Both the position numbers and the translations under genes were made by a program. Below are positions 9,652 to 24,313 of a stretch of DNA of 25,934 bases, piece by piece (within the stretch, counting starts at the first letter, position 1; each line of letters begins with the position of its first letter). The DNA comes from a virus: IMG/VR virus record IMGVR_UViG_3300028364_000976, positions 1-25,934 of that record; one strand, written 5' to 3'. The notes below the pieces were generated by a model. It saw nothing but the letters and a program-made list of their open reading frames with translations. It did not search any database and had not been told where the DNA came from.

Positions 9652-9948
9652 CTATGGAGTCACGACGGTAACGCCGCCAACACTTGCGGTGGCAGACGAG
9701 CCTCGTACATGCGGCGTGTCCGTCAGCACCACCTTCAGAAACCCACTCTGCTGGAACACCGCGCCTTCGGGCAGGCCGACATCGTCAGTCTGTAGCGCGG
9801 TCAGCGTCAAAGCCGTCGCCCGTAGCGGGCCTGGTACTTGGCTCTGCTGGGCGAACACAGCGAAGTTACGAATGAGCTGCGAGAAGTACGACTGGTTGTA
9901 CTCTTGTGGAGGGTTCGGAAAGAATGGAATCGGTACGCCGCGGCTCAT
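9652..9948 (-). CDS. Small conserved phage structural protein, 98 aa
   Basis: Begins MSRGVPIPFFPNPPQEYNQS, followed by a helical stretch (QSYFSQLIRNFAVFAQQSQV) and a beta-rich C-terminal half (LKVVLTDTPHVRGSS, SVGGVTVVTP). I recognise this N-terminal type (GLPIPFFPNPP.EYN) from short proteins encoded beside tail genes in marine phages; it has no assigned function. The start overlaps the stop of the nozzle-like gene by one base (TGATG). Downstream is a gap of 139 bases up to the next large gene, most of it occupied by the small ORF at 9512-9613. Likely a minor virion or tail protein. Confidence 0.8.
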   Translation of the reverse strand: MSRGVPIPFFPNPPQEYNQSYFSQLIRNFAVFAQQSQVPGPLRATALTLTALQTDDVGLPEGAVFQQSGFLKVVLTDTPHVRGSSATASVGGVTVVTP

Positions 9949-11843
9949 CAGCGTCTCCCGTCGGGTCGCAAGTCATATCGCATGCTGCCAAGGCGCCAGC
10001 CCACACCAGAGCCGTCCGACGCGATGCGTACGCTGAACTGCCTGCCGCGCAGACGCAGGTGGATCTGCTCAGTGCTCTCGTCAATCGTGCTTGTCGTGGT
10101 CCGCAGGTAGTTGCCGTTGGTAAAATTCCGCACGCGCGTGGTTACGTCTATCGACGGAGATTCGGTCGAGGAGTTGCGGAAGTCCACGTCGGGGATCATT
10201 CGGCGCATGAAAATGAACTGCTCTCCGTCGCCCATATCAAGCGGGCTGGACTGCACAAAGGCGTCTATTGGTGACGCGGGGACCGTGCTGCCGTCGTCGA
10301 ACCCTGTCTCGTGGTTGTACAAACGCTTGTCAGTGCTGGCCGCCACCGGCAGCTGCTCGATGCCGCGGTCAAGCCACGCCGTGCGCGCCAGCGAACCGTA
10401 GTACCACAGGTTCTCGAGGTAATTGAACACAACGTACCGATCGTTTTCAGCGCTGTTCGCCGACGGGTAGAACCACCAGATCTCGCTGTTCGCCGTGTTG
10501 GCGGCCGCAAAGATCTTCTCCACCTGATCGAAGTTCATGTCGTTGAACACAAGGTCCCGCACAGAGCAAGGCAGCCGGTTGACCGTCCCCTCGTAGACGT
10601 AGAACTCGTTCCGTCCCATCCAGAAGATCCTGTCGTCCACGGCTACAACCGCGTTCGGGCTCTGGATCGTGATGTTCTCAGAAACCTTTGACAGGCCGAA
10701 CGTGAACGGGGGGCCAATGAACTGCATGGCGTACATGGAGACGTCGGTGAAGATGATTGTCTGCTGGCGGGTCTCGACGGCACGGATGATCTTGGACCCA
10801 GAGCCGAGGCGCAAGTCGCCCGCTGTGTTGGTCGCGGTCGGCAGCCAGTCCACCACGGACTCTTGATCCGAGAACCGGATGAGCAGGGGGTCTTGCACGC
10901 CGACGTCGGTGAAGGGGTCGCACCCGAAGGCGATGACGTGCCGGTCGATGTCCGACACCATGACCTGCGTTGCCACGGTAGGGGCAGAGATTGCTCCAGA
11001 TAGATCGCTGATCGCCACGCCGCGGTTGTTGCTCAGCCCTGCAGAGGAATCCCAGAGGTAAATGCCGCCGTTGACGACGTTGAACAGCAGGTCCTCGCCA
11101 AAGTTGTCGTGGCTCCACAGACGCAAAGTGTCTTTGATGAGATCAATGGTGGCGGCACTGCCCCACGCGCCGCGGCTCCACGGGCCTGCGCCCCAGCCGG
11201 TGCCGAACACAGAGGTGTCGAGACCGATGTTGATTTGATACGCGCCGATCACGCCCGCCCCGCCGTCGCCGGTGTCGGAAGCATTGGCCGCCACAAGCGT
11301 GGGGGTGTAGACCCCGTTGATCGTGATCTGCGATAGCGAGGCCACGGCCCGCGCCAGAATAGTGTAGGTCGACGAGTCGACGACCGAGGCAATCTGATAC
11401 TCTTGGTTCAGGATGTCAGCGGTGATAACGCCGCCAAGGCTGGCCGCATCAGTGTACGTCACGAAGTCCCCGGCCACCGCGCCGTGCGTCGGGTCCGACA
11501 CAGTCAGCACAGAAGAGCCGTTGACCGCAGCAAACGTAACGGCTCCGGCCGAAGTCGTGCGGCGGATGGGGGTGACGTCGTAGTACCCCTGACCGTACTC
11601 GATGTAGTACTTCAGGTGCGTGCCAACGCCGAGGTAGGTCTCAAGGCCCAAGGTCCGCCAGATATGAAGCGCGCGGCACGATCCGAGGAACGTGCTGTTC
11701 CCAAGGCGGGCCCAGCCGCCGATCTTCTCAGGATATCCAAACCGGAAGCGAATCTTGTCGCCGTCGAACCATCCACCCTCGTTGCTATACGAAGTGATCT
11801 CTCGGTTAATACCGGGACGGAACTGGAGTTTTGTCAGTGGCAT
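9948..11843 (-). CDS. Tail nozzle / DNA-stabilisation-like protein (P22 gp10-like), 631 aa
   Basis: The N-terminus (KLQFRPGINREITSYSNEGG...GDKIRFRFGYPEKIGGW) is a signature I associate with large podovirus tail proteins. Later come beta-strand-rich repeats typical of a propeller (HVIAFGCDPF, KIIRAVETRQQTIIFTDVSM, AVVAVDDRIFWMGRNEFYVY, RYVVFNYLENLWYYG). A tryptophan-rich box GWGAGPWSRGAWGSA lies at 216-230, and the C-terminus (LRGRQFSVRIASDGSGVGWRLGSMRYDLRP) is another family-type ending. Placement in the tail module and size fit a distal tail nozzle or stabilising protein such as P22 gp10; this assignment is by resemblance only. AGGATG just upstream serves as ribosome site and overlaps the end of the preceding epimerase gene. 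Virion location is probable. Confidence 0.7.
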   Translation of the reverse strand: MPLTKLQFRPGINREITSYSNEGGWFDGDKIRFRFGYPEKIGGWARLGNSTFLGSCRALHIWRTLGLETYLGVGTHLKYYIEYGQGYYDVTPIRRTTSAGAVTFAAVNGSSVLTVSDPTHGAVAGDFVTYTDAASLGGVITADILNQEYQIASVVDSSTYTILARAVASLSQITINGVYTPTLVAANASDTGDGGAGVIGAYQINIGLDTSVFGTGWGAGPWSRGAWGSAATIDLIKDTLRLWSHDNFGEDLLFNVVNGGIYLWDSSAGLSNNRGVAISDLSGAISAPTVATQVMVSDIDRHVIAFGCDPFTDVGVQDPLLIRFSDQESVVDWLPTATNTAGDLRLGSGSKIIRAVETRQQTIIFTDVSMYAMQFIGPPFTFGLSKVSENITIQSPNAVVAVDDRIFWMGRNEFYVYEGTVNRLPCSVRDLVFNDMNFDQVEKIFAAANTANSEIWWFYPSANSAENDRYVVFNYLENLWYYGSLARTAWLDRGIEQLPVAASTDKRLYNHETGFDDGSTVPASPIDAFVQSSPLDMGDGEQFIFMRRMIPDVDFRNSSTESPSIDVTTRVRNFTNGNYLRTTTSTIDESTEQIHLRLRGRQFSVRIASDGSGVGWRLGSMRYDLRPDGRR

Positions 11844-11852
11844 CGGGGCATC

Positions 11853-12602
11853 CTAGAACAGAGCGTTGGTCTTGGTCATGTCCGCTTGCGTGTACCGCTG
11901 GTAGCCGGAGATGGTAGGCATCGGCACTGTGACTATCTCCGCGTTAGTTCCAAGGGCCACGGACCGAGCAACATCCATAAAAGACACAGCTTCCCCGGTC
12001 CCTAAGTTATACACGCCGCTCACATCCAAGTCAAATAACCGTTTGTGGACCTCGATCACCCTCTCCACCGGCACAAAGTCCCTGTATATCGCATCGCTGC
12101 CCTCGAACACTTCGATCCGCCCGGTCGCCGCCGCCTGCTGCCGGAACCGTGTGTGCGGAGAGGGCTGGTCCTTGTGATCCTCGTGCGGACCGTAGACGTT
12201 GAAGTAGCGAAACGCCTGCACCGGCATGGGCCAGTCGCGCGAGGTGATGCACTGCTCCACGAGGTGCTTTGATTTGGCATACAGGCTTTGCGGATTGGGG
12301 CTGTCGGTCTCCCGAAAGGTCGTAGCATCAGGCCCGTACACAGACGCCGACGATGCAAACTGTATGGGTATGCGACGCAGGGCGCACCGGTCCAGCAGGT
12401 CGATGCTGAAGTACACGTTCTGCTCCTGCAGCCTGTCCCAATCTTGGCAGGCAGTGCTGGAGATAGCGCCCAGATGGATCACGCGGTCGATCCCAGCGAG
12501 AGAAAAAGGGCCGTCGCCCCACTCGTAGCCCACCGATCCCGGCAGTGCCGCCATCATGTTCTGGCCGATAAAGCCCTTGTGCCCTGTGATCAGAATAGCC
12601 AT
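11853..12602 (-). CDS. hldD: ADP-L-glycero-D-manno-heptose 6-epimerase-like NAD(P)-dependent epimerase
   Basis: A short-chain dehydrogenase/reductase of the extended type, 249 aa. The Rossmann motif GHKGFIG is at 7-13, with ASSASVYG (catalytic Ser region) and YAKSK (YxxxK catalytic pair). Several stretches follow E. coli HldD closely in order: FRYFNVYGPHEDHK, FEGSDAIYRDF, YNLGTGEAVSFMDVA, and the C-terminal YQRYTQADMT. HldD converts ADP-D-glycero-D-manno-heptose to the L,D form used in LPS inner core. The protein ends soon after TQADMT and is about 60 residues shorter than the E. coli enzyme. It overlaps the preceding HAD gene by 13 bases and lies directly before the tail nozzle gene. A related UDP-/GDP-sugar epimerase cannot be excluded. 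Confidence 0.8.
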   Translation of the reverse strand: MAILITGHKGFIGQNMMAALPGSVGYEWGDGPFSLAGIDRVIHLGAISSTACQDWDRLQEQNVYFSIDLLDRCALRRIPIQFASSASVYGPDATTFRETDSPNPQSLYAKSKHLVEQCITSRDWPMPVQAFRYFNVYGPHEDHKDQPSPHTRFRQQAAATGRIEVFEGSDAIYRDFVPVERVIEVHKRLFDLDVSGVYNLGTGEAVSFMDVARSVALGTNAEIVTVPMPTISGYQRYTQADMTKTNALF

Positions 12603-12886
12603 TGCGCTTTGTCATCCACCCATACGTCATATTGCGGCTTGCCCATGCGGAACTCGTGGTATTTGCAGCCCCACTCCGACAGCTGGCTACAGGTCAAGTC
12701 TGCCCAGTCTTTACCGGATGCCGCGCCGCGCGCCGTCCAGTACACGATTGTGTGGCCCTCGTCGTACAGCGCGTTGATCTTCGCGATCCTGTCGTACAAA
12801 GGTTGGGCGTTAGGGTAGTCGCTGGCCGTCTGCGTGCAGATCGTGCCGTCGATATCAACCACATATTTCTTCAAGGGTTGGGGCAT
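12590..12886 (-). CDS. Small HAD-superfamily phosphatase (sugar-phosphate type)
   Basis: A 98-residue capless HAD fold. Motif I is VDIDGTIC (nucleophile D11, general acid D13), motif II is WTARG with T51, motif III is Lys83 in MGKPQYD, and motif IV is VDDK with D91/D92. All catalytic residues are present despite the small size. Similar mini-HADs occur in capsule and LPS gene clusters. Here it overlaps the heptose kinase by 32 bases upstream and the epimerase by 13 bases downstream. That supports a role in the same pathway, possibly removing the 7-phosphate of heptose 1,7-bisphosphate as GmhB does. It lacks the zinc-binding cysteine loop of GmhB, so that role is inference. Confidence 0.8.
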   Translation of the reverse strand: MPQPLKKYVVDIDGTICTQTASDYPNAQPLYDRIAKINALYDEGHTIVYWTARGAASGKDWADLTCSQLSEWGCKYHEFRMGKPQYDVWVDDKAQWLF

Positions 12887-13580
12887 ATGTTCCTCTGTGT
12901 TGGCAGGTTATAGCAGCCGCGCGGTTGGCAAACATCATCGCCTCCGCCAGATTGCTCGGGTCTTGGACCATCTGCCACGCAAAGGCAGCCAGATACGTAT
13001 CGCCCGCGCCGCACGGATCGACAACCTGAATATCCCGCGTTGGAGCATAGTGGTCCGCGGACCGCGAACCTCGGTTGCCGAGCGTCACAACAAGGTTCTT
13101 GGGCGGTGACACCAGCGCCTCGGCCTCCGCTTCGTTGACCTTGATCCACGCCGCTGTCATCAAACTCAGGTTTTGCTTCTTGGTGTCAACAAACAGGGGA
13201 ATCTTGCCATCAAGCTCTTGCAGAATGTCATGGGACACAAATCCCTTGCCGTAGTCTGACACCACCACAGCGTCGTAACCGGACAGGTCAGGCAGGTGGC
13301 CCAATGGGCTACTCGGTCTGTCGTAATCCACGCGCAGCAATTGTGTCCCATGGCGCGCGTCGATGTAGCGTTCCTTCTCGGACCACGGCTCAGGGGGCAG
13401 CATTATCTTCACCTCTGCCCCCAGCGCGATCAGGTTGTTGGCCACGTTGGCAGCCATCCCGTCTTGGACGGTGGTGACGAGATTGTTCAGGAGCGGGGCC
13501 GCCGCTTCTGGGTTCTTGCGGCTGCTGCTGCCGTGGATGTAGACATCCCGGCACGCGTCACCGATGACCAAGACCCTCAT
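12855..13580 (-). CDS. hldE1: PfkB-family kinase, D-glycero-beta-D-manno-heptose-7-phosphate kinase-like (HldE domain 1)
   Basis: A ribokinase/PfkB fold of 241 aa. GDACRDVYIHG (7-17) and the GMAANVANNLIALGA substrate loop (41-55) are the family N-terminal signature; VVSDYGKG is at 106-113; the C-terminal signature DPCGAGDTYLAAFA (188-201) includes the anion hole GAGD with catalytic Asp194. Spacing and several words (SDYGKG, GDxxxDxY, ANxAAA) match the kinase half of HldE/RfaE, which phosphorylates heptose 7-phosphate at C1. It is much shorter than the roughly 315-residue E. coli kinase domain, having lost loops in the middle, and the usual VTGAGD is PCGAGD. The adenylyltransferase half is a separate gene two positions upstream. 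It overlaps the cupin as ATGA. Another phosphosugar substrate is possible. Confidence 0.8.
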   Translation of the reverse strand: MRVLVIGDACRDVYIHGSSSRKNPEAAAPLLNNLVTTVQDGMAANVANNLIALGAEVKIMLPPEPWSEKERYIDARHGTQLLRVDYDRPSSPLGHLPDLSGYDAVVVSDYGKGFVSHDILQELDGKIPLFVDTKKQNLSLMTAAWIKVNEAEAEALVSPPKNLVVTLGNRGSRSADHYAPTRDIQVVDPCGAGDTYLAAFAWQMVQDPSNLAEAMMFANRAAAITCQHRGTYAPTLEEICG

Positions 13581-13924
13581 GGCTGGCTGTCTCCGGGGCG
13601 GACCCGGTAGTTGTCGTCGGGGTCGTCAAAGGTCGATACTTCGACCACGGTCCCCGCTTTAATACAGATGAGCTGGTGTGGGACAAGCGGGGCGTTGCGC
13701 CATGTGTCTCCGGGAAGCAGGGGCATTTCATGCTCAGAGGCATCGGTCGTGTCGATCCAGCGAAGGGTGAATTCGCCGCTTTGCACGAGCCACGTTTCAT
13801 CTTTGGTCCGGTGGAAGTGCATCGAGAAGCGCTTGCCCGCCTCGAACACCATGTTCTTGCCGCAGTATCCGGGCTGATCAGCCCAAATCTCTTCCCGTCC
13901 CCAGCCCTTCGGTATAATTATCAT
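13577..13924 (-). CDS. Cupin-domain protein, phosphomannose-isomerase-like
   Basis: A single-domain cupin of 115 aa. It starts with PKGWGREEIWA, the entry strand typical of the mannose-6-phosphate isomerase C-terminal cupin. Cupin motif 1 (H36 and H38 in SMHFHRTKDETWLVQSGEF) gives the HxH...E metal ligands, and motif 2 is PGDTWRNAPLVPHQL. It sits between the HldE2- and HldE1-type genes, overlapping both (47 bases upstream, 4 bases downstream), so it is almost certainly part of the same sugar pathway. It may be an isomerase or epimerase of a phosphosugar, or a nucleotide-sugar 3,5-epimerase-like cupin. The chosen ATG has AAGGA nine bases upstream. The exact reaction is not determined by sequence. 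Confidence 0.75.
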   Translation of the reverse strand: MIIIPKGWGREEIWADQPGYCGKNMVFEAGKRFSMHFHRTKDETWLVQSGEFTLRWIDTTDASEHEMPLLPGDTWRNAPLVPHQLICIKAGTVVEVSTFDDPDDNYRVRPGDSQP

Positions 13925-14297
13925 TGTTCAAAATCCTTGTTGTAGACTTGCCGTCAACATACGGCAGAACAACAACCTTTGCCAAGCCGTAACCGACGAT
14001 GTCCTCGGCGGTATAGTCCCCGCCCTTTGTAACTACATCCGGTTGCAGCGATACGATCAGATCGTATGGGGTGTCCTCATCGAAGATCACCACCTCGTCC
14101 ACGCAGCGCAGGGCCTGTAGCATGCGCTTGCGGTCGGCCTGATTGTTGACCGGGCGACTCGGGCCTTTTAACCGGCGCACCGAGGCGTCGGAGTTAAGAC
14201 CTACGACAAGCCGGTCTCCTAGGTTTTTCGACTGCTCGAGGTATTGCAGGTGCCCGACATGCAGGATGTCGAAGCAGCCGTTGGTGAAGATCAGCAT
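13878..14297 (-). CDS. hldE2: Heptose-1-phosphate adenylyltransferase-like (HldE domain 2 / RfaE2), 139 aa
   Basis: A nucleotidyltransferase of the cytidylyltransferase-like superfamily. The HxGH-type motif lies in TNGCFDILHVGH (5-16), followed by YLEQSKNLGDRLVVGLNSDA and LKGPSRPVN, nearly word-for-word with the C-terminal domain of E. coli HldE. KGGDY (91-95) and DGKSTT (114-119) complete the family signature. HldE2 transfers AMP from ATP to heptose 1-phosphate, giving ADP-heptose. The gene overlaps the GT25 gene by seven bases and the cupin by 47 bases. After ILNN the last residues are encoded entirely within the overlap with the cupin gene. A glycerol-3-phosphate or other sugar-phosphate cytidylyltransferase is a less likely alternative. 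Confidence 0.88.
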   Translation of the reverse strand: MLIFTNGCFDILHVGHLQYLEQSKNLGDRLVVGLNSDASVRRLKGPSRPVNNQADRKRMLQALRCVDEVVIFDEDTPYDLIVSLQPDVVTKGGDYTAEDIVGYGLAKVVVLPYVDGKSTTRILNNDNYTEGLGTGRDLG

Positions 14298-14983
14298 GAC
14301 AGGTCGTCGTTGCGCTCGGTCGTGCGGCCCTCCGTGGGGCGGCCCAGAATCGTGGTGTCCGGCTCTTTGACGTCGTGCGCGTAGATGCCCATCTGGTGGA
14401 TCGGGAAGACGTCGGCACGCAGCAGGATGTCGAGCGGAGCGCTGATCCCGTACTTGAGCACATGGGCCAGCATGTTCTTGGCCACAGCAGGGTCGATGGC
14501 GTAGGCGTGGGCCCGGCAGATGAAGTGGTAGTTCGGCCCTTCACTGGCATGGGGTGGTGTAGGGAGCACCTGCCAGCCTTGGTTCACCTGCTCGTTGCTG
14601 CCCAGATAGCAGATCGAGTTGAACACGGCGTGGTGGGCGTAGGGCTGCACCATCACACTATCGTGTTCGAGAACCACCAGCGGGCGGTCGTCGATCACGC
14701 ACTTCTGCCAGAGGCTGATGTGGCTCAGAGCACAGGCCACCTCGCCTCGCGTCAGATAATGGTCTGTCACCTTGACCATTGCAGGCACACCGCCGTGGTG
14801 GGCAGGAGGCACGATAGGGTTCTGAATGCCGTCGTAGGCGTCCCAGTATTCCCAGTCCATGCCCGCCAGATCGCAGCTCTCCGCCGCGCGCTGAGCCTTC
14901 TGCATCGACATCTCGTGGTTCGGGATGCGGATGATGTAGGCTTTGGTAACGGACTGGTCGTAGCTGTAGTTCAATGATTGCAC
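14291..14983 (-). CDS. Glycosyltransferase family 25 (LPS-type) protein
   Basis: A 230-aa protein with the GT25 pattern: N-terminal strand KAYIIRIPNH (14-23), the signature RGEVACALSHISLWQKCV (79-96), then the strand PLVVLEHDSVM (101-111). The usual acidic EDD motif is EHD here (106-108). The C-terminal part has HAYAIDPAVAKNML and APLDILLRADVFP. GT25 enzymes add galactose or related sugars to LPS cores or proteins. The start is GTG at 14983, three bases after the RCC1-C stop; an ATG further in would remove the first beta-strand. It heads the heptose cassette, overlapping the adenylyltransferase by seven bases. Acceptor (LPS or virion protein) unknown. Confidence 0.8.
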   Translation of the reverse strand: MQSLNYSYDQSVTKAYIIRIPNHEMSMQKAQRAAESCDLAGMDWEYWDAYDGIQNPIVPPAHHGGVPAMVKVTDHYLTRGEVACALSHISLWQKCVIDDRPLVVLEHDSVMVQPYAHHAVFNSICYLGSNEQVNQGWQVLPTPPHASEGPNYHFICRAHAYAIDPAVAKNMLAHVLKYGISAPLDILLRADVFPIHQMGIYAHDVKEPDTTILGRPTEGRTTERNDDLSC

Positions 14984-14986
14984 GGG

Positions 14987-16213
14987 TTAGCCTGTTGTTA
15001 TGGCGACGGAGACGCTTCCGGTAGCCGAAACCTCCGACCAAGTTGTTAAGGTGCCAACTTGAACAGGGCTGGACTTAAACACATTGTTTGTTCCATCCCC
15101 AAGATAGCCGATAACGTTTCTTCCCCAAGCCCAAAGAGTGCCGTCGGTCTTAATCGCCGTGATGCGGTTGTCGCCAACCGACAGTTTTGACCAGTTTGAT
15201 AAGGCCCCGACCTGAACAGGGCTGGACCTTCGGACTACAGTGCCGTCACCAAGCTGCCCGTAATTGTTATTCCCCCAAGCCCAAATAGTGCTGTCGGTTT
15301 TTATGGCTCCCGAAAGAAAACTACCTCCGCTTACACGAATCCAGTTTGTCAAAGCCCCCACCTGAACAGGGCTTGATCGGTTAATAATATTGCCAGTGCC
15401 TAGCTGCCCGAAAGAGCTGGAGCCCCAAGCAAATAGCGCGTTTCCTGTTGTTACGGCTAACGTGTGATTAAGGTTTGCCGACACGGAAGCCCATGTGCTT
15501 AACGACCCAACCTGCACAGGGGATGAGCGCGCCGAAGATGCGGCGGAACTCAAGTTTAGCCCAAGCTGCCCGTCTCCGTTCCATCCCCACGACCAAAGAG
15601 TGCCGTCGGTTTTTACAGCCACACAATGACTGCCGCCTACGGAAACCTGCGCCCAGTTTGTTAGAGCGCCAACCTGTACGGGACTAGATTTAGCGACTCC
15701 GTTGGTGTTAAGGCCGAGCATACCAGCGAAATCTCGGCCCCATGTCCACATAGTGCCGTCGGTTTTTATGGCTGCGCTAGTAAAACTTCGTGCGTCAACC
15801 TTAGACCAATTGGTTAGAGCGCCCACCTGCGAGGGCGAAGACCTAGTTAAAGTGTCGTTATGGCCTGCTGCTCCATAATTGTTACCGCCCCAAGAATATA
15901 ATGACCCCCCGCTACGAACGGCCAAAACGTGCTGCCCGGTTGCAGCAGAAGCCCAGTCTGTCAAAGCGCCTACGGAAACAGGGGAAGACCTGTTTCCCGA
16001 ACTCTCAAAGGGCGGCGGCCAAAAACCGGCCTGAGCGAACCCCAAAACGTCTGACAGAGACCAGACACCCGACGCCACTACTTGATTGGAGTTTGCACCA
16101 ATGCCAAGGCTTGGGCCGTCCCCCCATGCGTAAAGGTTAGAGTCCCCCAACGGTTGCCCCGTCACCTCTGGAGGTGTCTTGCTGATTACGCCACCGGGAA
16201 AGCGATCACCCAT
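14987..16213 (-). CDS. RCC1-repeat protein C (seven repeats), putative tail fibre or receptor-binding protein
   Basis: The N-terminus PGGVISKTPPEVTG is a form I have seen in phage tail-associated proteins. Next come LYAWG, then the module SGVWSLSDVLGFAQAGFW (48-65). Seven RCC1-type repeats of about 50 residues follow, each with SSPVxVGxLxxW and KTDGTLWAWGxNxxGxLGDGT. Seven repeats match a seven-bladed beta-propeller. No signal peptide or catalytic residues are visible. AAGGAG lies eight bases before the ATG. The gene follows the 141-aa helper-like protein and precedes the sugar cassette. A virion attachment or adhesion role is inferred from context; RCC1 propellers in other organisms bind proteins or nucleotide-exchange partners. 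Confidence 0.8.
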   Translation of the reverse strand: MGDRFPGGVISKTPPEVTGQPLGDSNLYAWGDGPSLGIGANSNQVVASGVWSLSDVLGFAQAGFWPPPFESSGNRSSPVSVGALTDWASAATGQHVLAVRSGGSLYSWGGNNYGAAGHNDTLTRSSPSQVGALTNWSKVDARSFTSAAIKTDGTMWTWGRDFAGMLGLNTNGVAKSSPVQVGALTNWAQVSVGGSHCVAVKTDGTLWSWGWNGDGQLGLNLSSAASSARSSPVQVGSLSTWASVSANLNHTLAVTTGNALFAWGSSSFGQLGTGNIINRSSPVQVGALTNWIRVSGGSFLSGAIKTDSTIWAWGNNNYGQLGDGTVVRRSSPVQVGALSNWSKLSVGDNRITAIKTDGTLWAWGRNVIGYLGDGTNNVFKSSPVQVGTLTTWSEVSATGSVSVAITTG

Positions 16214-16225
16214 CGGTCGGACTCC

Positions 16226-16651
16226 TTACAGAGCGTCCACGTCTTCGTGGGTTATTGCGGCTTCAATCGCATCCATGCGGGCTTCGAACACCACGCGAGC
16301 AGCGTCAACCACGGCGGCGTCATACTGCGTCTCAGGATACGCATCGGTTTCCTTGGCAACCTCGGCGTCAACCACGGCCTTGAACTCGGCCTTGGCTTGC
16401 GACCGCAGGCCATCCTTGCGCTCTTCCGGCTCAAGCTCACGCTTCGACCACACGATCTGTGCAGGCTCGACATCAATGTCGATCTGGTGCGTGGTCATGA
16501 TCTCGCGGTTCGGCACAAGGTCGGGCATGACCTCGACGGCCTCGCGCCAACCGGGCTCTACAGCCAGCTTGTCAGCCGACGGCTTGTAGTCCCACACGTC
16601 CTTGACTTGGCCGTTCTTGACGCGAATCCAATAACCCGTTTTCGTAGGCAT
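16226..16651 (-). CDS. Hypothetical tail-associated protein with C-terminal coiled coil, 141 aa
   Basis: The N-terminal half (1-72) is beta-rich, with GYWIRVKNGQVKDVWDY and PGWREAVEVMPDLVPNREI. The C-terminal half (74-138) is a charged helix-forming region (EERKDGLRSQAKAEFKAVVD) likely to be a coiled coil. AAGGAG stands six bases before the ATG, making the start secure even though the upstream sulfotransferase gene overlaps its first 80 bases. It is immediately followed by an RCC1-repeat fibre gene. Small proteins of this layout next to fibre genes are often fibre-assembly factors, so a chaperone role is possible, but I do not recognise the family and this is inference. Confidence 0.7.
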   Translation of the reverse strand: MPTKTGYWIRVKNGQVKDVWDYKPSADKLAVEPGWREAVEVMPDLVPNREIMTTHQIDIDVEPAQIVWSKRELEPEERKDGLRSQAKAEFKAVVDAEVAKETDAYPETQYDAAVVDAARVVFEARMDAIEAAITHEDVDAL

Positions 16652-18389
16652 GGTGTAGCTCCTTTTTCAACTCTCCGAAGACTGTCACCCAGTCCCCATG
16701 TCCTGTTTGACGGAAAAGACGCACTGAGTCGTACCACTCCGTCCGATGTCCCGGCTTCGCCCAAAGATAATACGGAAGCACGGGCGTGACAATCCATGTT
16801 TGCACGCCCATCGCCGCCGCCATGTGAGCAACTGATGTGCAGGACGTTACCACAATATCACAGGATGCGATAGCCTGTCGCGTGTCTTCCCAGTGCGCCA
16901 ATGGCACATCTTTGACCCACGCAGGTTTGTGCTCCGCGCCCTCGTCGCGCTGCAGGCTGACGTACTCGACATCCAGCCCCTTCACCGCGTTGAACATGTA
17001 TTGCGCCGGGAACAGCCGGTGCTGCTGGTGCTCGAACTCAGGGTTGCCCTGCCAGCGCAGACCGATCCGCAGCTTGCCGCTCTTAGCTACATCCGGCTTG
17101 GGCATATACGCCGACCCGTCGATGTGCTTGTACTGCCAGCCCAGAGGAATGCTCGCCGTCATGCTCGGCACCCAGAAGTCATGCACCACGCCAAACGCAG
17201 CCTCGTGCTGGACAACCATATCGACGCCATCAACATGGCGCATGGTCATCGCCAACGCGCCGGAGCACGCCACAATCACCTGATTGCCGCGCTTCTTCAG
17301 TTCGCGGGCGAACCGCGCACCGTGCATTTGGTCGCCCAGTCCCGCCTCTAGGTTCAGCAGGACCGTGCCTTGGCTCACGCCGTCCCAGATCGGTGTCGGC
17401 ACCTTGGGCGCCTCGTTGCCAAAGACCTTCTCGATCCGGCCGCGATCCAAGAGCTTCATGCCGTCCAGCAGGTGGCCTTTGCGCATCTCGTACCAACCAC
17501 GGTTGAACGCCGCGCGGTGGTTCTTGGGCTCCTTGATCGCCAGCTCTTGCGAGATTTCCTCGCCCTTCTCAAAGTCGCCGATGATCCCAGCAGCAAGCTG
17601 CATGTCCAGCGGATGGATCATCTCGGTCGTCAGCGGCTTTTCACGCCAGAAGCAGGGCTGCACGAAGTTCTGGTGCATGTGCTGCAGGACGTCTTCAGGC
17701 TTCTCGTTGTGCCGCTTGCCCAGCTTCGGGGCCACGGCATGCAGGCCCGGGACTTGCCATATCTCCTCGTCGCGCTCCTTCGGGGCGTACTCGTCGAGGT
17801 GGTCAAAGTCGTAGTCAAAATCGCTAAGTTCTAGAAACTCGTGAATGCGGGCCAACTGCTTCTTCGGGTCTGCCAGCATGTCCTCATACTCGACGAACAG
17901 AAAGCAGGACTTGTCGTAGTTGAACCCTGACAGCAGCGCCGCGTAGCTCTCTTTCAAGTGGCCGATCAGCTCGCTGTTGCGCAGGAACTGCTCTGGATCG
18001 TTGGGCTTGGCGATCCGCACGAAGGATGCTGCGCACTCGTCGATGCTGCGCACGGTGGCGATGATCTTGGGCTTGTACGGCAGCAGGTCTTTGAGCACCT
18101 GCACCGTCGAGGCGTCCGCCCAGTTCCGCGCTTTGTCGATCACCACAGGCTTGTCCACCTTGGCGTACTTCGCGTCCATAATGCCACGCAACACGGACTT
18201 GATCTGGTCGGGGTCGGGGGCTGCCTGCTCGGCCGAGCTGCCCTGCCACGCCTTGAAGGTGTTGAACATCACCTCGCCCAGCCCGCTTGTCGGACTGGTG
18301 TGGACGTCAGGGTGCTGGTTGAGCATCGCAGCGAGTACCGTGCTGCCAGAGCGGGGGAGACCAGCGAGGAAGTGAAAGGTTTTGGGCAT
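16572..18389 (-). CDS. Sulfotransferase fused to TPR-like linker and heptosyltransferase-like (GT9-type) glycosyltransferase
   Basis: 605 aa. Residues 1-250 are a sulfotransferase: the PAPS 5'-phosphosulfate loop is LPRSGSTVLA (11-20) and the 3'-phosphate site is ATVRSIDECAASFVR (111-125). Residues 262-320 look TPR-like (ELAIKEPKNHRAAFNRGWYE). Residues 340-580 resemble the ADP-heptosyltransferase/GT9-like domain found in TPR glycosyltransferases: NLEAGLGDQMHGARFARELK, IGLRWQGNPEF, and DIVVTSCTSVAHMAAAMG. The frame extends upstream to 18452, but the ATG at 18389 overlaps the RCC1-B stop (TAATG) and gives the conserved start of the domain. The last 26 residues run into the next gene. Probably transfers sulfate and a sugar to a glycan; the substrate is unknown. 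Confidence 0.82.
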   Translation of the reverse strand: MPKTFHFLAGLPRSGSTVLAAMLNQHPDVHTSPTSGLGEVMFNTFKAWQGSSAEQAAPDPDQIKSVLRGIMDAKYAKVDKPVVIDKARNWADASTVQVLKDLLPYKPKIIATVRSIDECAASFVRIAKPNDPEQFLRNSELIGHLKESYAALLSGFNYDKSCFLFVEYEDMLADPKKQLARIHEFLELSDFDYDFDHLDEYAPKERDEEIWQVPGLHAVAPKLGKRHNEKPEDVLQHMHQNFVQPCFWREKPLTTEMIHPLDMQLAAGIIGDFEKGEEISQELAIKEPKNHRAAFNRGWYEMRKGHLLDGMKLLDRGRIEKVFGNEAPKVPTPIWDGVSQGTVLLNLEAGLGDQMHGARFARELKKRGNQVIVACSGALAMTMRHVDGVDMVVQHEAAFGVVHDFWVPSMTASIPLGWQYKHIDGSAYMPKPDVAKSGKLRIGLRWQGNPEFEHQQHRLFPAQYMFNAVKGLDVEYVSLQRDEGAEHKPAWVKDVPLAHWEDTRQAIASCDIVVTSCTSVAHMAAAMGVQTWIVTPVLPYYLWAKPGHRTEWYDSVRLFRQTGHGDWVTVFGELKKELHHAYENGLLDSRQERPSQGRVGLQAVG

Positions 18390-19561
18390 TAGTTTGTCGT
18401 GTCTTGAAAAAGGGCGGCGGTGTGTAGGCCGCCCGCTGCCGCCTGCGCCCATTTAGTTAGGGCGCCGACTTGGACAGGACTGGAGTGGCTGATAACCGTG
18501 CCTTGCCCGAGTTCACCGTTGCCGCCGTAACCCCAAGCCCAAAAAGTGCCGTCGGTCTTAACTGCAGCGATGTGTCTGCGCCCCGCCGAGGCCTGCTTCC
18601 AGTTCGTAAGGGCGCCGACTTGGACAGGACTGGAGCGGCTGATAACCGTGCCTTGACCTAAGTTGCCGAAGTTTCCCAACCCCCATGTCCAGAGAGTGCC
18701 GTCGGTCTTGATAGCAGCGTGGAAAACCTCGCCCCCCGAAATCTGCTTCCAGTTCGTAAGGGCGCCGACTTGGACAGGACTGGAGCGGCTGATAACCGTG
18801 CCTTGACCTAAGTTGCCGAAGTTTCCCAACCCCCATGCGTAGAGCGTCCCGGAGGTTGTGATGGCGGCGGTGTGGTTGACGCCTGCGGAAACCTGCGCCC
18901 AGTTTGTTAAAGCGCCGACTTGAACAGGACTGGAGAGGTTAGCGTTATTATTGTGCCCAAGGGTGCCGTAGCCTCCGAACCCCCACGTCCAGAGAGTGCC
19001 GTCGGTTTTAACACAGGCAGTGTGCCCTTGACCCGCTGAAACCTGCGCCCAGTTTGTTAAGGCACCGATTTGAACGGGGCTGGAGCGGTCGATAGTCGTG
19101 CCGTCACCAAGCGCACCTCTTCTATTAAAGCGGTTGCTATTGACCCCCCACGCCCAGAGAGTGCCGTCGGTCTTGACAGAGGCAGTCCTGCCGCCACCCG
19201 CCGAAACCTGCGCCCAGTTTGTTAGCGCACCGATCTGAGTTGGACTGGAGCGAGAGATAATGGTTCCATCACCGATTCCAGATATAGGGCCGCCCCCTCC
19301 GGAGCCTTGGTAGCCCCAAGCCCAAAGAGTGCCGTCAGTTTTAATGGAGGCAGTGAGCCAGAAACCCGCCGAAACCTGCGCCCAGTCCGAGCCCGCGACC
19401 TGCACCGGCGAAGATCTAGAAACAATAGTCCCGTCCCCAATCCCCCCAAATAAGTTGCGGCCCCAGCCATATAGCTCGAATATCGGCAACCCCGTCCACC
19501 GCCCCGCAGCGACGGCCTGCACCTGCTCTTTTAGGTTCCAGATTCCCGAGAAGTTGGGCAT
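18389..19561 (-). CDS. RCC1-repeat protein B (seven repeats), putative tail fibre or receptor-binding protein
   Basis: 390 aa, beginning MPNFSGIWNLKEQVQAVAAG with the SG-I-W...AG-x-W module (5-22) that also occurs in RCC1-C. Seven repeats follow, each ending in a form of SRSSPVQVGALTNWxQVSAG and containing KTDGTLWAWG, compatible with a seven-bladed propeller. Repeats five and six are nearly identical at DNA level. AAGGAG sits eight bases before the ATG inside the end of the upstream gene, whose stop abuts the start (TAAATG). The stop overlaps the start of the sulfotransferase fusion (TAATG). There is no signal peptide, as expected for a virion protein assembled in the cytoplasm. Role in host recognition inferred. 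Confidence 0.8.
   Translation of the reverse strand: MPNFSGIWNLKEQVQAVAAGRWTGLPIFELYGWGRNLFGGIGDGTIVSRSSPVQVAGSDWAQVSAGFWLTASIKTDGTLWAWGYQGSGGGGPISGIGDGTIISRSSPTQIGALTNWAQVSAGGGRTASVKTDGTLWAWGVNSNRFNRRGALGDGTTIDRSSPVQIGALTNWAQVSAGQGHTACVKTDGTLWTWGFGGYGTLGHNNNANLSSPVQVGALTNWAQVSAGVNHTAAITTSGTLYAWGLGNFGNLGQGTVISRSSPVQVGALTNWKQISGGEVFHAAIKTDGTLWTWGLGNFGNLGQGTVISRSSPVQVGALTNWKQASAGRRHIAAVKTDGTFWAWGYGGNGELGQGTVISHSSPVQVGALTKWAQAAAGGLHTAALFQDTTN
18593..18687. repeat. Exact 95-bp direct repeat, copy 1
   Basis: Identical base for base to 18743-18837, exactly 150 bases away, i.e. one 50-residue RCC1 repeat. Lies inside RCC1-B. A third, shorter and imperfect relative lies around 18463-18510. Confidence 0.92.
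18743..18837. repeat. Exact 95-bp direct repeat, copy 2
   Basis: Second copy of the 18593-18687 sequence inside the RCC1-B gene. The perfect identity, including synonymous positions, indicates a recent unit duplication or gene conversion and offers a site for repeat-number change. Confidence 0.92.
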
Positions 19562-20947
19562 TTATATGACTCCTTGGAGGGCGTTGATGTGGGCGACGCC
19601 TGCTTCAACCTGCACCCAGTTAGTTAAAGCGCCAACTTGGACAGGGCTAGACTTATCAATAATCGTTCCGTCTCCAAGCTGACCGCTAGGGCTATTGTCT
19701 CCCCAAGTGAACAAAGTGCCTGCCGTTGTCACGCAGGCGGTGTTGACATCACTTGCTGAAACCTGTGCCCAGTTGGTTAGCGCACCAATTTGAACAGGGC
19801 TGGAGCGGTTAATGATAGTGCCGTTGCCAAGCTTGCCGCTGTTGTTGAAGCCCCAAGTAAACAGGGTGCCTGCTGTCGTGACGCAGGCGATGTGATTGCT
19901 GCCTGCTGAGGCCTGCGCCCAGTTTGTAAGGGTGCCAACCTGTACGGGACTGGAAAGTCTAATAGTGTTGTTATGACCAAGCTGCCCGTTATTGCCGCCC
20001 CATGTAAAAATAGCTCCAGTCGTTGTAATGCAGGCGGTAAAAAAAGCGCCTGCCGAAACCTGCGCCCAGTTGGTTAAGCTACCCACCTGAACAGGGCTGG
20101 AACGGTCAATGATATTGCCTTGACCGAGTTGTCCGTCATAGTTGCGCCCCCAAACAAACAAAGTTCCGTCAGTTTTAACACAAGCGGTGTGAACGCCCCC
20201 AGCAGAAACTTGAGACCAATTAGTTAACGCGCCGACTTGAACAGGGCTAGACTTGTTGGCGACCGTGTTGTCGCCAAGGCGTCCGTTAGTACCATTGCCC
20301 CAAGTAAACAAAGTGCCCGCTGTTGTGACACAGGCAGTGTGCGCAAGGCCCGCAGAAACTTGAGACCAATTGGTTAGAGCGCCAACCTGCACAGGGCTAG
20401 AAAGAGAAATAGTGTTGTTGTGACCGAGGCGACCTTCATTGCTGATCCCCCAAGTAAAGAGAGTGCCAGAAGTCGTAACACAGGCGGTGTGCGCATAACC
20501 CGCAGAAACCTGCGACCAATTGGTTAGAGCACCGATTTGAACAGGGCTGGACTTATCTATGTTGTTCGTCCCGTCGCCAAGGCGACCGTTGGCACCTTCG
20601 CCCCAAGCATACAACTCTGCTCCTGAGAATACGGCATTCCCCGGTACAAACTCCGTCAGCCGTCCCGGCCCAAAGCCGTTGACCGCCTGCGCGCGAATCT
20701 TGAACGTGCCGCCGCCGGGGGAGATGCTGATCGGGGAAGCTGAACCAACAGCGCCAGTGCTCAGACCCGTGCTCTCGTTAATCGCGGTCACGATGTACGA
20801 CGTAACCGCCGCGTCCCCAGTGTCGCTGGGCGCGGTAAACGAAACAGAAGCAGAGCCGATGCTCGTGCTTACGCTCAAGTCGGTTGGTGCGTTCGGTGTG
20901 CTGAGAGGCGTAAAACCGCTTAGCGTGCCGCCTTGTCCACGAGGCAT
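19562..20947 (-). CDS. FN3-RCC1 protein A: fibronectin type III domain plus seven RCC1 repeats, putative tail fibre
   Basis: 461 aa. Residues about 19-97 form a fibronectin type III domain (NAPTDLSVSTSIGSASVSFT, TFKIRAQAVNGFGPG). From 110 onward there are seven RCC1 repeats of about 50 residues, each with SSPVQ[VI]GALTNWxQVSAG, HTACVTT and GTLFTWGxNxxGxLG. FN3 domains are common surface adhesion modules on phage tail proteins. AGGAG lies six bases before the ATG, just after the homing endonuclease stop. A seven-bladed propeller is the expected fold; ligand unknown. The start and the FN3 N-terminus agree. This is the first of three consecutive RCC1 genes, all of them in the tail operon. Confidence 0.82.
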   Translation of the reverse strand: MPRGQGGTLSGFTPLSTPNAPTDLSVSTSIGSASVSFTAPSDTGDAAVTSYIVTAINESTGLSTGAVGSASPISISPGGGTFKIRAQAVNGFGPGRLTEFVPGNAVFSGAELYAWGEGANGRLGDGTNNIDKSSPVQIGALTNWSQVSAGYAHTACVTTSGTLFTWGISNEGRLGHNNTISLSSPVQVGALTNWSQVSAGLAHTACVTTAGTLFTWGNGTNGRLGDNTVANKSSPVQVGALTNWSQVSAGGVHTACVKTDGTLFVWGRNYDGQLGQGNIIDRSSPVQVGSLTNWAQVSAGAFFTACITTTGAIFTWGGNNGQLGHNNTIRLSSPVQVGTLTNWAQASAGSNHIACVTTAGTLFTWGFNNSGKLGNGTIINRSSPVQIGALTNWAQVSASDVNTACVTTAGTLFTWGDNSPSGQLGDGTIIDKSSPVQVGALTNWVQVEAGVAHINALQGVI

Positions 20948-20950
20948 AGC

Positions 20951-21541
20951 TTACTCCTCAACCTGAGTTTGTTGCGCAGCCAAAATCTTCTTGCGCTCGC
21001 GATACAACCTTGAAGCTTCCCACATCTTTTCCATGTGCCCAGTCCGCTTTTTGGCGTTCTCACTAATCTTCTTGCGCGTTTCTTCGGACCGAACCTTGCC
21101 AAGATGCGCTTTCCGCATCTTTTCTTTGGTTTCTTCCGTATGAGGCACTCCCCGCCGATAGCCGGGCTTGCCAAAGTTGGGGTGTTGCTCCCCCGTGCGG
21201 CCGTACATCCCGTTGTGCTCTCCCGTCAAACCCTTAGAGCCCCTGCCGCCGGAACAGATGTTATATCCGTGGGGGGTCTGGGTGTTGTACGCAGAGATAA
21301 AACGTGACTCGACCAAGTAGCAGTAGTCCTTTGCTCCCACGCAAAGGATTTCAAACACAAAGTTTTCTTCGCCGTGCTTGGCGATTGCGTTTTTCAGCAT
21401 AGACCGGGTTCTAATGTTCTGCTTAAAGTGACTGCGCTTCCGGAGCTCCGGATCAATCGTCACTCCAACGTACATCTTTCCGTCAACCTTATTGGTAACG
21501 GAGTAAACGCAGGCAGCTTTTTCTGGGAGCTGCATAAGCAT
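20951..21541 (-). CDS. GIY-YIG homing endonuclease with NUMOD3-type DNA-binding motifs
   Basis: 196 aa. The GIY-YIG core is CVYSVTNKVDGKMYVGVT (VYS at 12-14, YVG at 24-26), with Arg34/Arg36 in the next helix and the catalytic Glu78 in YLVESRFISAYN, then GYNICSGG. Two NUMOD3-like repeats follow (NGMYGRTGEQHPNFGKPG, 110-127), then lysine-rich helices (HTEETKEKMRKAHLGK and RSEETRKKISENAKK) for DNA binding. The architecture is that of free-standing homing endonucleases of phages such as the Seg/Mob families. It is inserted between a small virion gene and the FN3-RCC1 gene without breaking either. Start may be the ATG at 21541 or the one two codons later (21535). Confidence in type is high; target site unknown. 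Confidence 0.92.
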   Translation of the reverse strand: MLMQLPEKAACVYSVTNKVDGKMYVGVTIDPELRKRSHFKQNIRTRSMLKNAIAKHGEENFVFEILCVGAKDYCYLVESRFISAYNTQTPHGYNICSGGRGSKGLTGEHNGMYGRTGEQHPNFGKPGYRRGVPHTEETKEKMRKAHLGKVRSEETRKKISENAKKRTGHMEKMWEASRLYRERKKILAAQQTQVEE

Positions 21542-21543
21542 TT

Positions 21544-21918
21544 TTAAGATATGTCCTCATAGCTCACTACGACCTTCAGGTCGTTCGCGGAGCCAGCCGT
21601 CGCACCAATCGACCGGTCTTCCTCAAGGTAGAGCGAGGTGTTCTTGTCGATCACGATCAGAGAGGCATCCGCAGGGACGCTCACCGTGCTGACGATCTGA
21701 GTCGCCGTACCGCCAATCGCGGCGGCGCTGTAGTAGCTCACAGTGATATCTGCAGCGTTCGTGCCGTCTACGTTTGAAACCACCAGCGAGTTGATCTTGA
21801 AGACCTTGCCGCTTGCGGCAGCGTTACTCACCACCGCAGTTGCTGCTGTCGTCGTGAGACTGACCACGGCGGATTTGCCGAGGATCGTGGTCACGTTAAT
21901 TATGTTCGGGTTTGCCAC
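21544..21918 (-). CDS. Small beta-rich phage structural protein, 124 aa (GTG start)
   Basis: Alternating beta-strand pattern throughout: ITVSYYSAAAIGGTATQIVS, SVPADASLIVIDKNTSLYLE and ends KVVVSYEDIS. A Ser/Thr/Ala-rich segment near the start (VVSLTTTAATAVVSNAAASG) is typical of virion decoration or tail proteins. The start is GTG at 21918, with AAGGAG seven bases before it; no ATG gives a better-placed start. It lies between a tail-fibre-like gene and the homing endonuclease. I recognise it only as a conserved type of marine phage structural protein; the exact role is unknown. Confidence 0.78.
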   Translation of the reverse strand: MANPNIINVTTILGKSAVVSLTTTAATAVVSNAAASGKVFKINSLVVSNVDGTNAADITVSYYSAAAIGGTATQIVSTVSVPADASLIVIDKNTSLYLEEDRSIGATAGSANDLKVVVSYEDIS

Positions 21919-21925
21919 CTAGCTT

Positions 21926-21931
21926 CTCCTT
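21926..21931 (-). promoter_or_regulatory. Ribosome binding site fixing a GTG start at 21918
   Basis: AAGGAG on the - strand, seven bases before GTG. It overlaps the last codon of the upstream tail-fibre-like gene and supports the non-ATG start. Confidence 0.85.
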
Positions 21932-22553
21932 AACCAAAAATCAGGGCCGCCGCGACGGCCTTCCCGAATCCAATGCCAGCGTCACCGAAGCTGATGCTGC
22001 CCGATCCATCCGTCACCAAAGCCTGACCGCTTGTGCCATCAGTGGTCGGCAGTGTAAGTGCGGTGACGAAAGCTTGCAGATTTGCGTCGTAGGCCAAGAC
22101 TGTCGTGCCAATCGAAGCTGTCGTCAACACGTTCGAGAGGTCGGCACCCAAACTGGCCACATTCGCGCCTGCACCGCCGCCGTCCGCGTAGACGATGTCC
22201 GTCGCGCCGGTGGCGACCGTAACCGTGGTCCCCGAACCTTGGGTCAGGATGATGCTCTCGCCGGAGTTGTTGACGATGAAGTACAACTTCTCCTGATCGT
22301 TGGGCGAGATCGTCACCGTGTTGGTGCCGCTAGGCGTGCCGCCAAATACCAGAACCTTGTACTGGCCGTCCGACAGCGCGCCGTCCGAAGTGGTCAGCGT
22401 GTGCGTCGTGCCGGTAATCGTGATGTCACCAACGCCATTCGTCAGGCGGTCGATGATCTCAAGATTCGTGTTGGTGGTATCACCCCACGTCCCCGACTGC
22501 TCACCATTGGTGATGAGCTCGATGCCGGTATTTACGGTATATGTACTAGCCAT
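21930..22553 (-). CDS. Tail-fibre-like phage structural protein, 207 aa
   Basis: Opens MASTYTVNTGIELITNGEQS with GTWGDTTNTNLEIIDR (22-37). This N-terminal pattern (TNxGIELI..GEQSGTWG..TNTN) is found in tail or fibre proteins of cyanophages and other marine phages. The rest is beta-rich (HTLTTSDGALSDGQYKVLVF, EKLYFIVNNSGESIILTQGS) with a Gly/Ala tail. The ribosome site is moderate (AAGGG). It follows the VTG-repeat protein and precedes the 124-aa protein. Probable tail or baseplate-associated component; assignment by resemblance. Confidence 0.78.
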   Translation of the reverse strand: MASTYTVNTGIELITNGEQSGTWGDTTNTNLEIIDRLTNGVGDITITGTTHTLTTSDGALSDGQYKVLVFGGTPSGTNTVTISPNDQEKLYFIVNNSGESIILTQGSGTTVTVATGATDIVYADGGGAGANVASLGADLSNVLTTASIGTTVLAYDANLQAFVTALTLPTTDGTSGQALVTDGSGSISFGDAGIGFGKAVAAALIFG

Positions 22554-22573
22554 AGGTCGCCCTTATATCCGGG

Positions 22574-23569
22574 TCACGGTTGAATCTCAGTATAGACTGT
22601 TGTGGGAGTTGGCGCAATAGGAGTCCAGTCCGTGTCAGGATCAGGCACAATGCGGCCCCAGACCAGAACGCCCCACGGACTGATGAGCCCTCGCGCGGAA
22701 ACCCCTGTGACCAGAACGTCGATCCCCGTGCCGCCCGTGACGGCCACAGAACCAACAGCCCCCGTCACCGCAAAACCATTGACCGGAATGCGCTGGTTGA
22801 CCTGCGTCGTGACCTCGCCGACCTGACCAGTGGCCTCGAGCGGCAGCGTAACCGGCTGGCTCCATGCGCCCTGACCCCATGTGCCGCGGCCCCAGCCCTC
22901 AAAGAAGACCAAGGCGTCCTGCCGGATCGAGCTCACCAAGCCTTCGGCCGCCACACCCGTCACCGAAACAACAGCGATGCCCGTGGCTGTAATAGTGCCG
23001 ACGTCCCCTGTCGCGGCCAGACCCGTGAGGATTGGAGCGGTGGAGCCTGTCGCGATGACCGTGTCCACCGCACCGGTGCCCTCGACGCCTGTAAGCGTTG
23101 TGCTTACACCGACGCCCTCGCCAATCGTAACGCCCTCAACGGACGTCGTGCCTTCGACACCGGTGACGACAGCGGCGACCAAAGCGCGGAACGTGACCTC
23201 GCCGACCCCGCCGGTGGCAGCAACCCCCGTGGCAACAGCGCCGGCGCCCGCAGCGGCCGTAGCAGTGCCAACAGCCGTAGTGGCATCCACCCCCGTTACC
23301 GTAACAATAGCCGTGCCCGTTGCAACAACCGTGCCAACGCCACCAGCCGCCGCCAGACCAACAATGTCTGGAGCAGCATTGATCTGGACTGTGACGCCCT
23401 CAGCAGCAGCCGTGGCAGAAAGACCCGTTACAGCGAGTGTCGAGTCACCAATAACAGTAAGCGTTCCCGGAGAGGCCGTGGCAGAAAGGCCCGTAACCGT
23501 TACCGGTACGGCCTCGCTCCACGCGCCCTCAGACCATGTGCCGCGGCTCCAGCCCGTTATGTTTGCCAT
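22574..23569 (-). CDS. VTG-repeat, beta-rich fibre-like structural protein, 331 aa
   Basis: Residues 23-294 contain about twelve degenerate repeats of roughly 22 residues with the core VTVTG[VL]xATGxVGxV. Two tryptophan boxes frame and interrupt them: GWSRGTWSEGAWSEAV (6-21) and GWGRGTWGQGAWSQPV (225-240). Ala, Gly, Thr and Val dominate, with almost no charge, so a beta-solenoid or extended fibre is likely. The repeats are divergent at DNA level. GGTGAT lies upstream of the ATG at 23569. The W-box type GWGxGxWxxGAW is also seen in other marine phage structural proteins and in the nozzle-like protein here. Virion role probable; function unknown. Confidence 0.78.
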   Translation of the reverse strand: MANITGWSRGTWSEGAWSEAVPVTVTGLSATASPGTLTVIGDSTLAVTGLSATAAAEGVTVQINAAPDIVGLAAAGGVGTVVATGTAIVTVTGVDATTAVGTATAAAGAGAVATGVAATGGVGEVTFRALVAAVVTGVEGTTSVEGVTIGEGVGVSTTLTGVEGTGAVDTVIATGSTAPILTGLAATGDVGTITATGIAVVSVTGVAAEGLVSSIRQDALVFFEGWGRGTWGQGAWSQPVTLPLEATGQVGEVTTQVNQRIPVNGFAVTGAVGSVAVTGGTGIDVLVTGVSARGLISPWGVLVWGRIVPDPDTDWTPIAPTPTTVYTEIQP

Positions 23570-23589
23570 GGCCGATCACCCCGCGTGCT

Positions 23590-24027
23590 TCAAGCTATGC
23601 GAATGATCGCCGTCGAAGCATCCGCGGTAGGGAAGACAATCTGGAAGTCACCGGCGGTCGACGTTTTGTCGGCACCAAAGTCCAGCACAGCAACGGTTGG
23701 ATCGCCAGCAGCGGTGTCGTTGTAAATCAACGCGCCGCGCGCCGTGATCGTGGCCGAGGTGAAGGTCAGGTCATCGAAATCCGTGAACGCCGTGGTGCCG
23801 CTCGTCGTGGGCGTGACGTTGGTCAACGCACCGCCGCCCGCAGCGTAAGAGCCGGAGTTCGCAACCTCGTTCGTGGCCGTGTAGGCCGTGGTCGCAGCCG
23901 TAAACGAAGCACTGTTGTTATACAGCGCCAGCTTAAAGGTGTTCCCCGTCGAGGTCGTAAAGTTGTGCACAGCTTGCAGGATTTCCTGCTTGAAGGATGT
24001 GCAAAGAAAGTTGCCTATAAAAGCCAT
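23590..24027 (-). CDS. Conserved phage structural protein, 145 aa
   Basis: Begins MAFIGNFLCTSFKQEILQAV, a signature I associate with a conserved small virion protein of marine tailed phages. Then HNFTTSTGNTFKLALYNNSA and beta strands with Thr/Ala/Gly (GALTNVTPTTSGTTAF, TARGALIYNDTAAGD), ending DFQIVFPTADASTAIIRIA. AAGGAG is eight bases before the ATG at 24027. No transmembrane segment. It is the first clearly beta-rich gene after the connector genes, consistent with a tail or head decoration protein; function not established by sequence. Confidence 0.8.
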   Translation of the reverse strand: MAFIGNFLCTSFKQEILQAVHNFTTSTGNTFKLALYNNSASFTAATTAYTATNEVANSGSYAAGGGALTNVTPTTSGTTAFTDFDDLTFTSATITARGALIYNDTAAGDPTVAVLDFGADKTSTAGDFQIVFPTADASTAIIRIA

Positions 24028-24028
24028 G

Positions 24029-24313
24029 TCAAAGTCTCCTTATGAGTTCGGCCAAGTCAGGATGGCCTGCGTCTGTCAGCGCATTATACACTGTTGTGCG
24101 GTCACTGCGAACCGTTTGTTTCATGTACTGCTCGACAACGACAGCGATCTGCTTTTGGAAAGCCACGGCTTGCTCCCGCAGTGCGGGGTGCGCGGTTTCC
24201 GAAACGCTGACAATCTTCTGGGCCGCCTGCTGCGCAAGCTCCTCAGTGCTAAATCCGCGGCCGCTGGTTGTTCGAACCCCCACGGCGCCGATGTCCATGA
24301 AACCCAAACTCAT
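24029..24313 (-). CDS. Small conserved phage protein, 94 aa
   Basis: Mostly helical: a short disordered start (VGVRTTSGRG), then STEELAQQAAQKIVSVSETA, PALREQAVAFQKQIAVVVEQ and the C-terminal RSDRTTVYNALTDAGHPDLA. The C-terminal block is of a type conserved in small phage proteins located beside head-tail adaptor genes. The start overlaps the stop of the 217-aa gene as ATGA. Its last codons contain the ribosome site of the next gene. I recognise the family only as conserved hypothetical in marine phages; a helical scaffold or connector accessory role is inference. Confidence 0.78.
   Translation of the reverse strand: MSLGFMDIGAVGVRTTSGRGFSTEELAQQAAQKIVSVSETAHPALREQAVAFQKQIAVVVEQYMKQTVRSDRTTVYNALTDAGHPDLAELIRRL

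Follow-up and report, generated by a model that had tools for sequence, protein, structure and literature searches.

The RCC1 genes and their genomic context

The window, by which we mean the whole analysed stretch of 25,934 nucleotides, comes from an IMG/VR record of an uncultivated virus of bacteria and carries three genes for RCC1 propeller proteins, all on the minus strand. RCC1-A (19562..20947; 461 aa) comprises an FN3 module and a seven-bladed RCC1 propeller, RCC1-B (18389..19561; 390 aa) has seven predicted RCC1 repeats, and RCC1-C (14987..16213; 408 aa) is the protein whose allele is replaced in a near-identical genome. All three matched the RCC1 repeat family PF00415, with E values of 5.5e-81, 2.1e-65 and 6.3e-54 and scores of 267, 217 and 181 bits, respectively, against a curated Pfam cut-off of 21.7 bits, so the assignment is far above chance. 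RCC1-B additionally matched phrog_4219 (E = 1.5e-38). A genome scan for clues to the host returned only distant RCC1 proteins, mostly from Bacteroidetes, and led to no host assignment.

The RCC1 genes occupy a tail-fibre locus, namely the slot between a tail-fibre anchor gene (21930..22553, minus strand) and the gene of a P22-like stabilization protein (9948..11843, minus strand; phrog_3287, E = 1.8e-77), which forms the downstream border and is 42% identical to the stabilization protein of the cultured phage DSL-LC04. Just ahead of the head genes lies a gene for a conserved small protein (21544..21918, minus strand); its DSL-LC04 counterpart, with 72% identity, bears the annotation "putative lectin". 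The slot also holds an inserted GIY-YIG homing endonuclease with NUMOD3 (20951..21541, minus strand; PF01541, E = 2.8e-8; phrog_314), and a GIY-YIG endonuclease between head genes recurs in four other loci (L029, L033, L163 and L212). A SU10-type adaptor gene (24310-24963; PF24175) is found upstream of the heads. The small gene between the sulfotransferase gene and RCC1-C (16226..16651, minus strand) matched no family, known tail chaperone families included; its position makes it a possible fibre chaperone.

Repeat number and predicted fold

According to the original prediction, made from the DNA sequence, each of the three proteins contains exactly seven repeats, the number needed to close a seven-bladed propeller. 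Seven copies were indeed counted in A, B and C with a relaxed SSP motif and likewise with xWG, but not with stricter patterns: SSPVQ[VI]G[AST]L[TS].W was matched 7, 5 and 5 times, respectively, and exact copies of SSPVQVGALTNW numbered just 3, 3 and 2, so that "SSPVQVGALTNW-type" is only a loose description of the repeat. In all three proteins the layout is one of six contiguous blades of ~50 aa and a seventh blade split across both termini, made of an N-terminal WG strand and a C-terminal SSP half and thus non-contiguous. Velcro closure with an end-split blade is usual for propellers. In RCC1-C the first WG strand stands before the anchor tag and not after it, an order rearranged with respect to the relatives aligned. 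The mean identity among blades inside one protein was 50-68%, which fits growth by blade duplication, a route described for propellers in general (PMC9218822).

A survey of RCC1 genes in the loci collected yielded 143 complete distinct RCC1 proteins; phages with RCC1 include PollyC, AG-345-E08 and the cultured S-SRM01 and BUCT-ZZ01. About six to seven repeat lengths were covered in 131 of the 143 proteins, and four larger ones covered 11.6, 12.7, 13.4 and 20.0 repeat lengths, close to two or three rings. These counts are HMM coverage, chosen because simple regular expressions undercount blades (6 in 24 proteins).

The AlphaFold2 model of RCC1-A, built on a 28-row alignment (pLDDT 91.8, pTM 0.83), contains an FN3-like beta sandwich followed by 28 propeller strands (7 x 4), in which strand 109-116 completes the last blade as its fourth strand. 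RCC1-A is therefore confidently predicted to be a closed seven-bladed propeller (residues 108-461; 19565..20626, minus strand), in agreement with what had been proposed. The model superimposed on HERC2 RLD2 with a VIA Z of 53.8 and an rmsd of 1.5 Å over 350 residues, and on BLIP-II with a VIA Z of 31.7 and an rmsd of 2.1 Å over 264 residues. The model of RCC1-C (pLDDT 82.8) also forms a seven-bladed ring, with Z ~47 to UVR8 and HERC2; residues 1-50 are disordered in it (pLDDT <50), and it leaves the closing strand without a position, so for this protein the predicted blade number holds and the closure of the ring lies outside the model. The propeller fold is thus supported strongly for A, mostly for C and by sequence for B.

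Anchors and heads in related phages

The N-terminus of RCC1-A alone does not reach the Pfam fn3 cut-off. An HMM of A-type N-termini, however, matched proteins that join FN3 to a head other than RCC1 (E = 7e-13 to 4e-20), and those matches that were tested exceeded the fn3 cut-off with their N-termini. Together with the beta sandwich of the model, this bears out the FN3 domain that had been noted in one of the three proteins and places it as an anchor module at approximately residues 19-104 (20636..20893, minus strand). RCC1-B begins with an anchor tag of ~24 residues, MPNFSGIWNLKEQVQAVAAGRWTGLP (19484..19561, minus strand), of the pattern SG.W.L..Q....AG.W; the tag HMM matched RCC1 proteins and five non-RCC1 proteins, always inside the first 80 residues. 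The anchor region of RCC1-C (MGDRFPGGVISKTPP ... SGVWSLSDVLGFAQAGFWPPP; 16010..16213, minus strand) is a RFPGGVISKTPP-plus-tag region, and its kind of tag also occurs on Laminin_G and glycine-rich proteins of DSL-LC04. The N-terminal modules of all three proteins are hence found on non-RCC1 heads as well, as conserved anchors with exchangeable heads. Searches of the phage collection by tblastn with the short tag peptides alone returned the source phage only, or nothing, since tblastn needs longer queries in that collection. Other repeat heads, for example STRGxFAGG...TIASTGNATDFGDL, are joined to these FN3 or tag anchors in L105, L094, L103, L052, L088 and L122; heads of this type have no Pfam name and are perhaps another propeller.

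The closest full relative, L048, has flanks of 84-92% nucleotide identity to those of the window. It keeps the first ~140 residues of the anchor protein, which there continue into a tail-fibre-family C-terminus, and the anchor gene is followed by a gene for an Lcl_C lectin protein and then by a Phage_tail_APC tail assembly chaperone; its slot contains neither RCC1 nor sugar genes. The Lcl_C protein is located at 5316-6041 of L048, and proteins of the Lcl_C type are often targets of diversity-generating retroelements. In other syntenic relatives the anchor either is fused to a long protein (up to 1386 aa) or precedes FN3/tag proteins whose heads are glycine-rich or made of other repeats. DSL-LC04 shares the syntenic slot and the C-type N-terminal tags with the window, but its two tagged proteins carry Gly_rich_2 and six Laminin_G_3 domains, respectively, instead of RCC1. 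Across the relatives, the anchor is shared while the head changes. The location of the RCC1 genes among tail genes, as originally proposed, is thereby supported, as the same slot holds a tail-fibre C-terminus, Lcl_C, Laminin_G or glycine-rich heads in related phages.

Allele replacement and variation of the heads

The window is 99.5% identical to locus L009 over 9524 bp (16170-25693) and 94% identical at 14737-14985. RCC1-A and RCC1-B do not differ by a single SNP between the two, and only RCC1-C is replaced: from codon ~15 to the end the alleles are different, with 55% amino acid identity. This swap is known from two metagenome assemblies. A further locus, L010, stops at 16260, adjoining RCC1-C, and assemblies are expected to break where a gene is variable. 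In more distant relatives the heads are ~48-69% identical, in comparison to mostly 76-88% for the sulfotransferase, the GT25 protein and the product of the gene at 21544. Both replacement and diversification, as known for tail-fibre adhesins, are thus seen in these heads. A cluster of differences from both L009 and L010 is also present in the adaptor gene (24690-24870), surrounded by near-identical sequence, which suggests a small recombination tract.

Within 533 distinct repeats, loop entropy was 2.93 for the B-C loop and 2.05 for the D-A' loop, in comparison to 1.07 for A-B and 0.98 for C-D, with peaks at repeat positions 19, 20, 36, 38 and 39, all in the B-C and D-A' loops. By strand order these two loops share one face of the propeller, and the variation is concentrated there. 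A structural constraint general to RCC1 repeats may explain part of this one-faced variation.

Proposed function and alternatives

From the fold, the slot, the shared anchors, the allele swap and the one-faced variation we infer a further step, from an exchangeable head of the slot to a virion protein with a docking partner and a receptor. We consider it likely that A, B and C are the receptor-binding adhesin heads of a tail fibre or spike, as the slot is one of tail fibres and lectins and a head has been swapped wholesale between near-identical viruses, which makes these proteins the most likely host-gripping parts. The original prediction of adhesion heads on fibres is in this way supported by the slot, by the anchors on non-RCC1 heads, by the replacement of C and by the fold of A. 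The N-terminal anchors (FN3 in A, the tag in B and the RFPGGVISKTPP-plus-tag region in C) would dock onto the tail, with the fibre-anchor protein (21930-22553) and the adjoining small protein (21544-21918) as the probable docking partners, and the seven-bladed propeller behind the anchor would be displayed outward. The freely varying B-C/D-A' face would be the likely receptor-binding surface, with the remainder as a rigid scaffold. Heads would be exchanged as modules: at C one RCC1 allele gives way to another, and relatives have lectin, glycine-rich or other repeat heads where the window has RCC1. Our guess that the receptor is a surface glycan comes from the lectin heads that take the place of RCC1. 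If receptor binding is correct, the propeller serves as a swappable scaffold, one face of which varies, and lectin heads can take its place on the anchors that both share. Phage RCC1 proteins, listed so far under "regulator of chromosome condensation" and guessed to be DNA condensers, would then gain a testable function.

Proteins of this kind are already known in phages. Three RCC1 proteins of Escherichia phage W70 (W70_237-239), encoded in a row like those of the window and belonging to the PHROG of RCC1-B, phrog_4219, were found in virions by MS (PMC11370258), and so was GAP32_001 of Cronobacter phage GAP32 (PMC5259590); unlike the virus of the window, both are large myoviruses. Eleven RCC1 proteins have been described for phAPEC6 (PMC7247149), and in BUCT-ZZ01 an RCC1 gene lies near a tail-fibre gene. 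The T7-like Pseudomonas phage PollyC has RCC1 repeats at the tail-fibre position, in an 867-aa protein (YP_009622570.1) with a sub-threshold T7 tail-fibre N-terminus; this is a single fused fibre in which fewer repeats can be recognised, in contrast to the three separate tagged heads of the window. The contrast drawn originally with the guanine exchange factors of eukaryotes overstated the novelty of these proteins, as RCC1 was already known or annotated in phage virions or tail-fibre genes. We found no paper in the open-licence literature that assigns phage RCC1 proteins to receptor binding, and what appears to be new is the cassette of three tagged proteins whose heads can be exchanged, together with the function argued here. 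The eukaryotic UVR8, HERC and RCC1 propellers share the closed fold of RCC1-A (Z as high as 53.8), in a context that the window lacks. UVR8-like light sensing was rejected, because the GWRHT motif of UVR8 was absent from A, B and C and from all 143 relatives.

A role inside the virion has been put forward for other phage RCC1 proteins: the authors of the phAPEC6 (PMC7247149) and W70 (PMC11370258) studies suggested that they order or encapsidate DNA, those of W70 suspecting a part in DNA packaging, and eukaryotic RCC1 binds nucleosomes according to literature cited there. Transferred to the window, this would make A, B and C internal proteins that order or condense the packaged genome. However, their genes lie in a tail-fibre slot and are swapped there for lectin or fibre proteins, the net charges of -3, +7 and +3 (A, B and C, respectively) give no strongly basic DNA-binding character, and the replacement of the C allele fits an exposed surface better; on location and charge, we judged a DNA-condensing role highly unlikely. 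The heads might instead be virion adhesins whose targets, for instance particles or decoy surfaces, are not the receptor used for infection, which would agree with the several different heads per phage and with the lectin-like replacements. Near-clonal replacement of a single head and faster divergence of heads than of flanks are nevertheless typical of receptor-binding genes, and adhesion to such other targets seems improbable to us.

The fold shared with BLIP-II raises the further option of soluble, non-virion proteins that would bind and inhibit a host protein as BLIP-II does. BLIP-II is a bacterial propeller of the RCC1 type with seven blades and binds another protein, as the title of entry 1jtd indicates, but it is secreted as an inhibitor, its blades are shorter and it lacks a tail anchor. 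An export signal of the BLIP-II type was not detected at the N-termini of A, B and C, where the first 45 residues contained no hydrophobic stretch (maximal 15-residue hydropathy <1, by a crude test). Moreover, the anchor tags are common to lectin heads of the tail locus and related RCC1 proteins are present in the virions of W70 and GAP32, which leaves very little room for a soluble inhibitor.

Sulfotransferase and sugar genes of the locus

RCC1-C and RCC1-B are separated by a gene of the minus strand (16572..18452; 626 aa) for a sulfotransferase (PF13469, E = 5.1e-18) fused to a second part, which is homologous to phage TPR/glycosyltransferase-like proteins; this part is a putative glycosyltransferase by sequence resemblance, with no Pfam match. 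Further along, still on the minus strand, lie a gene of a GT25-family glycosyltransferase (14291..14983; PF01755, E = 9.8e-13) and a nucleotide-sugar cassette of epimerase, HAD, PfkB kinase, cupin and cytidylyltransferase genes (11853..14297).

The co-occurrence of RCC1 with the sulfotransferase-glycosyltransferase gene is the least expected result of our analysis. Among the RCC1-bearing loci that extend 2.5 kb or more downstream, 22 of 25 contain this gene, in 16 cases within 300 bp, as against none of 74 loci lacking RCC1 (each at least 10 kb); the comparison is no clean statistical test, since the loci are related and some were retrieved via RCC1 queries. The pairing extends to distant phages, namely S-SRM01 (L233), BUCT-ZZ01 (L232; second part only) and AG-345-E08 (L235), in the last of which a GT25 homologue accompanies three RCC1 genes and the two parts of the enzyme. 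So tight a linkage raises the question of whether phages modify their own adhesins. It is a reasonable idea, if not the more probable one, that the sulfotransferase-glycosyltransferase fusion, the GT25 enzyme and the nucleotide-sugar genes build a glycan, possibly sulfated, and attach it to the RCC1 heads; the phage would then encode a modification system of its own, dedicated to the heads that bind the receptor. Alternatively, these enzymes could make or alter some other glycan. The sugar cassette, with the GT25 gene included (11853-14983), lies inside the tail-fibre slot and resembles an ADP-heptose-type route.
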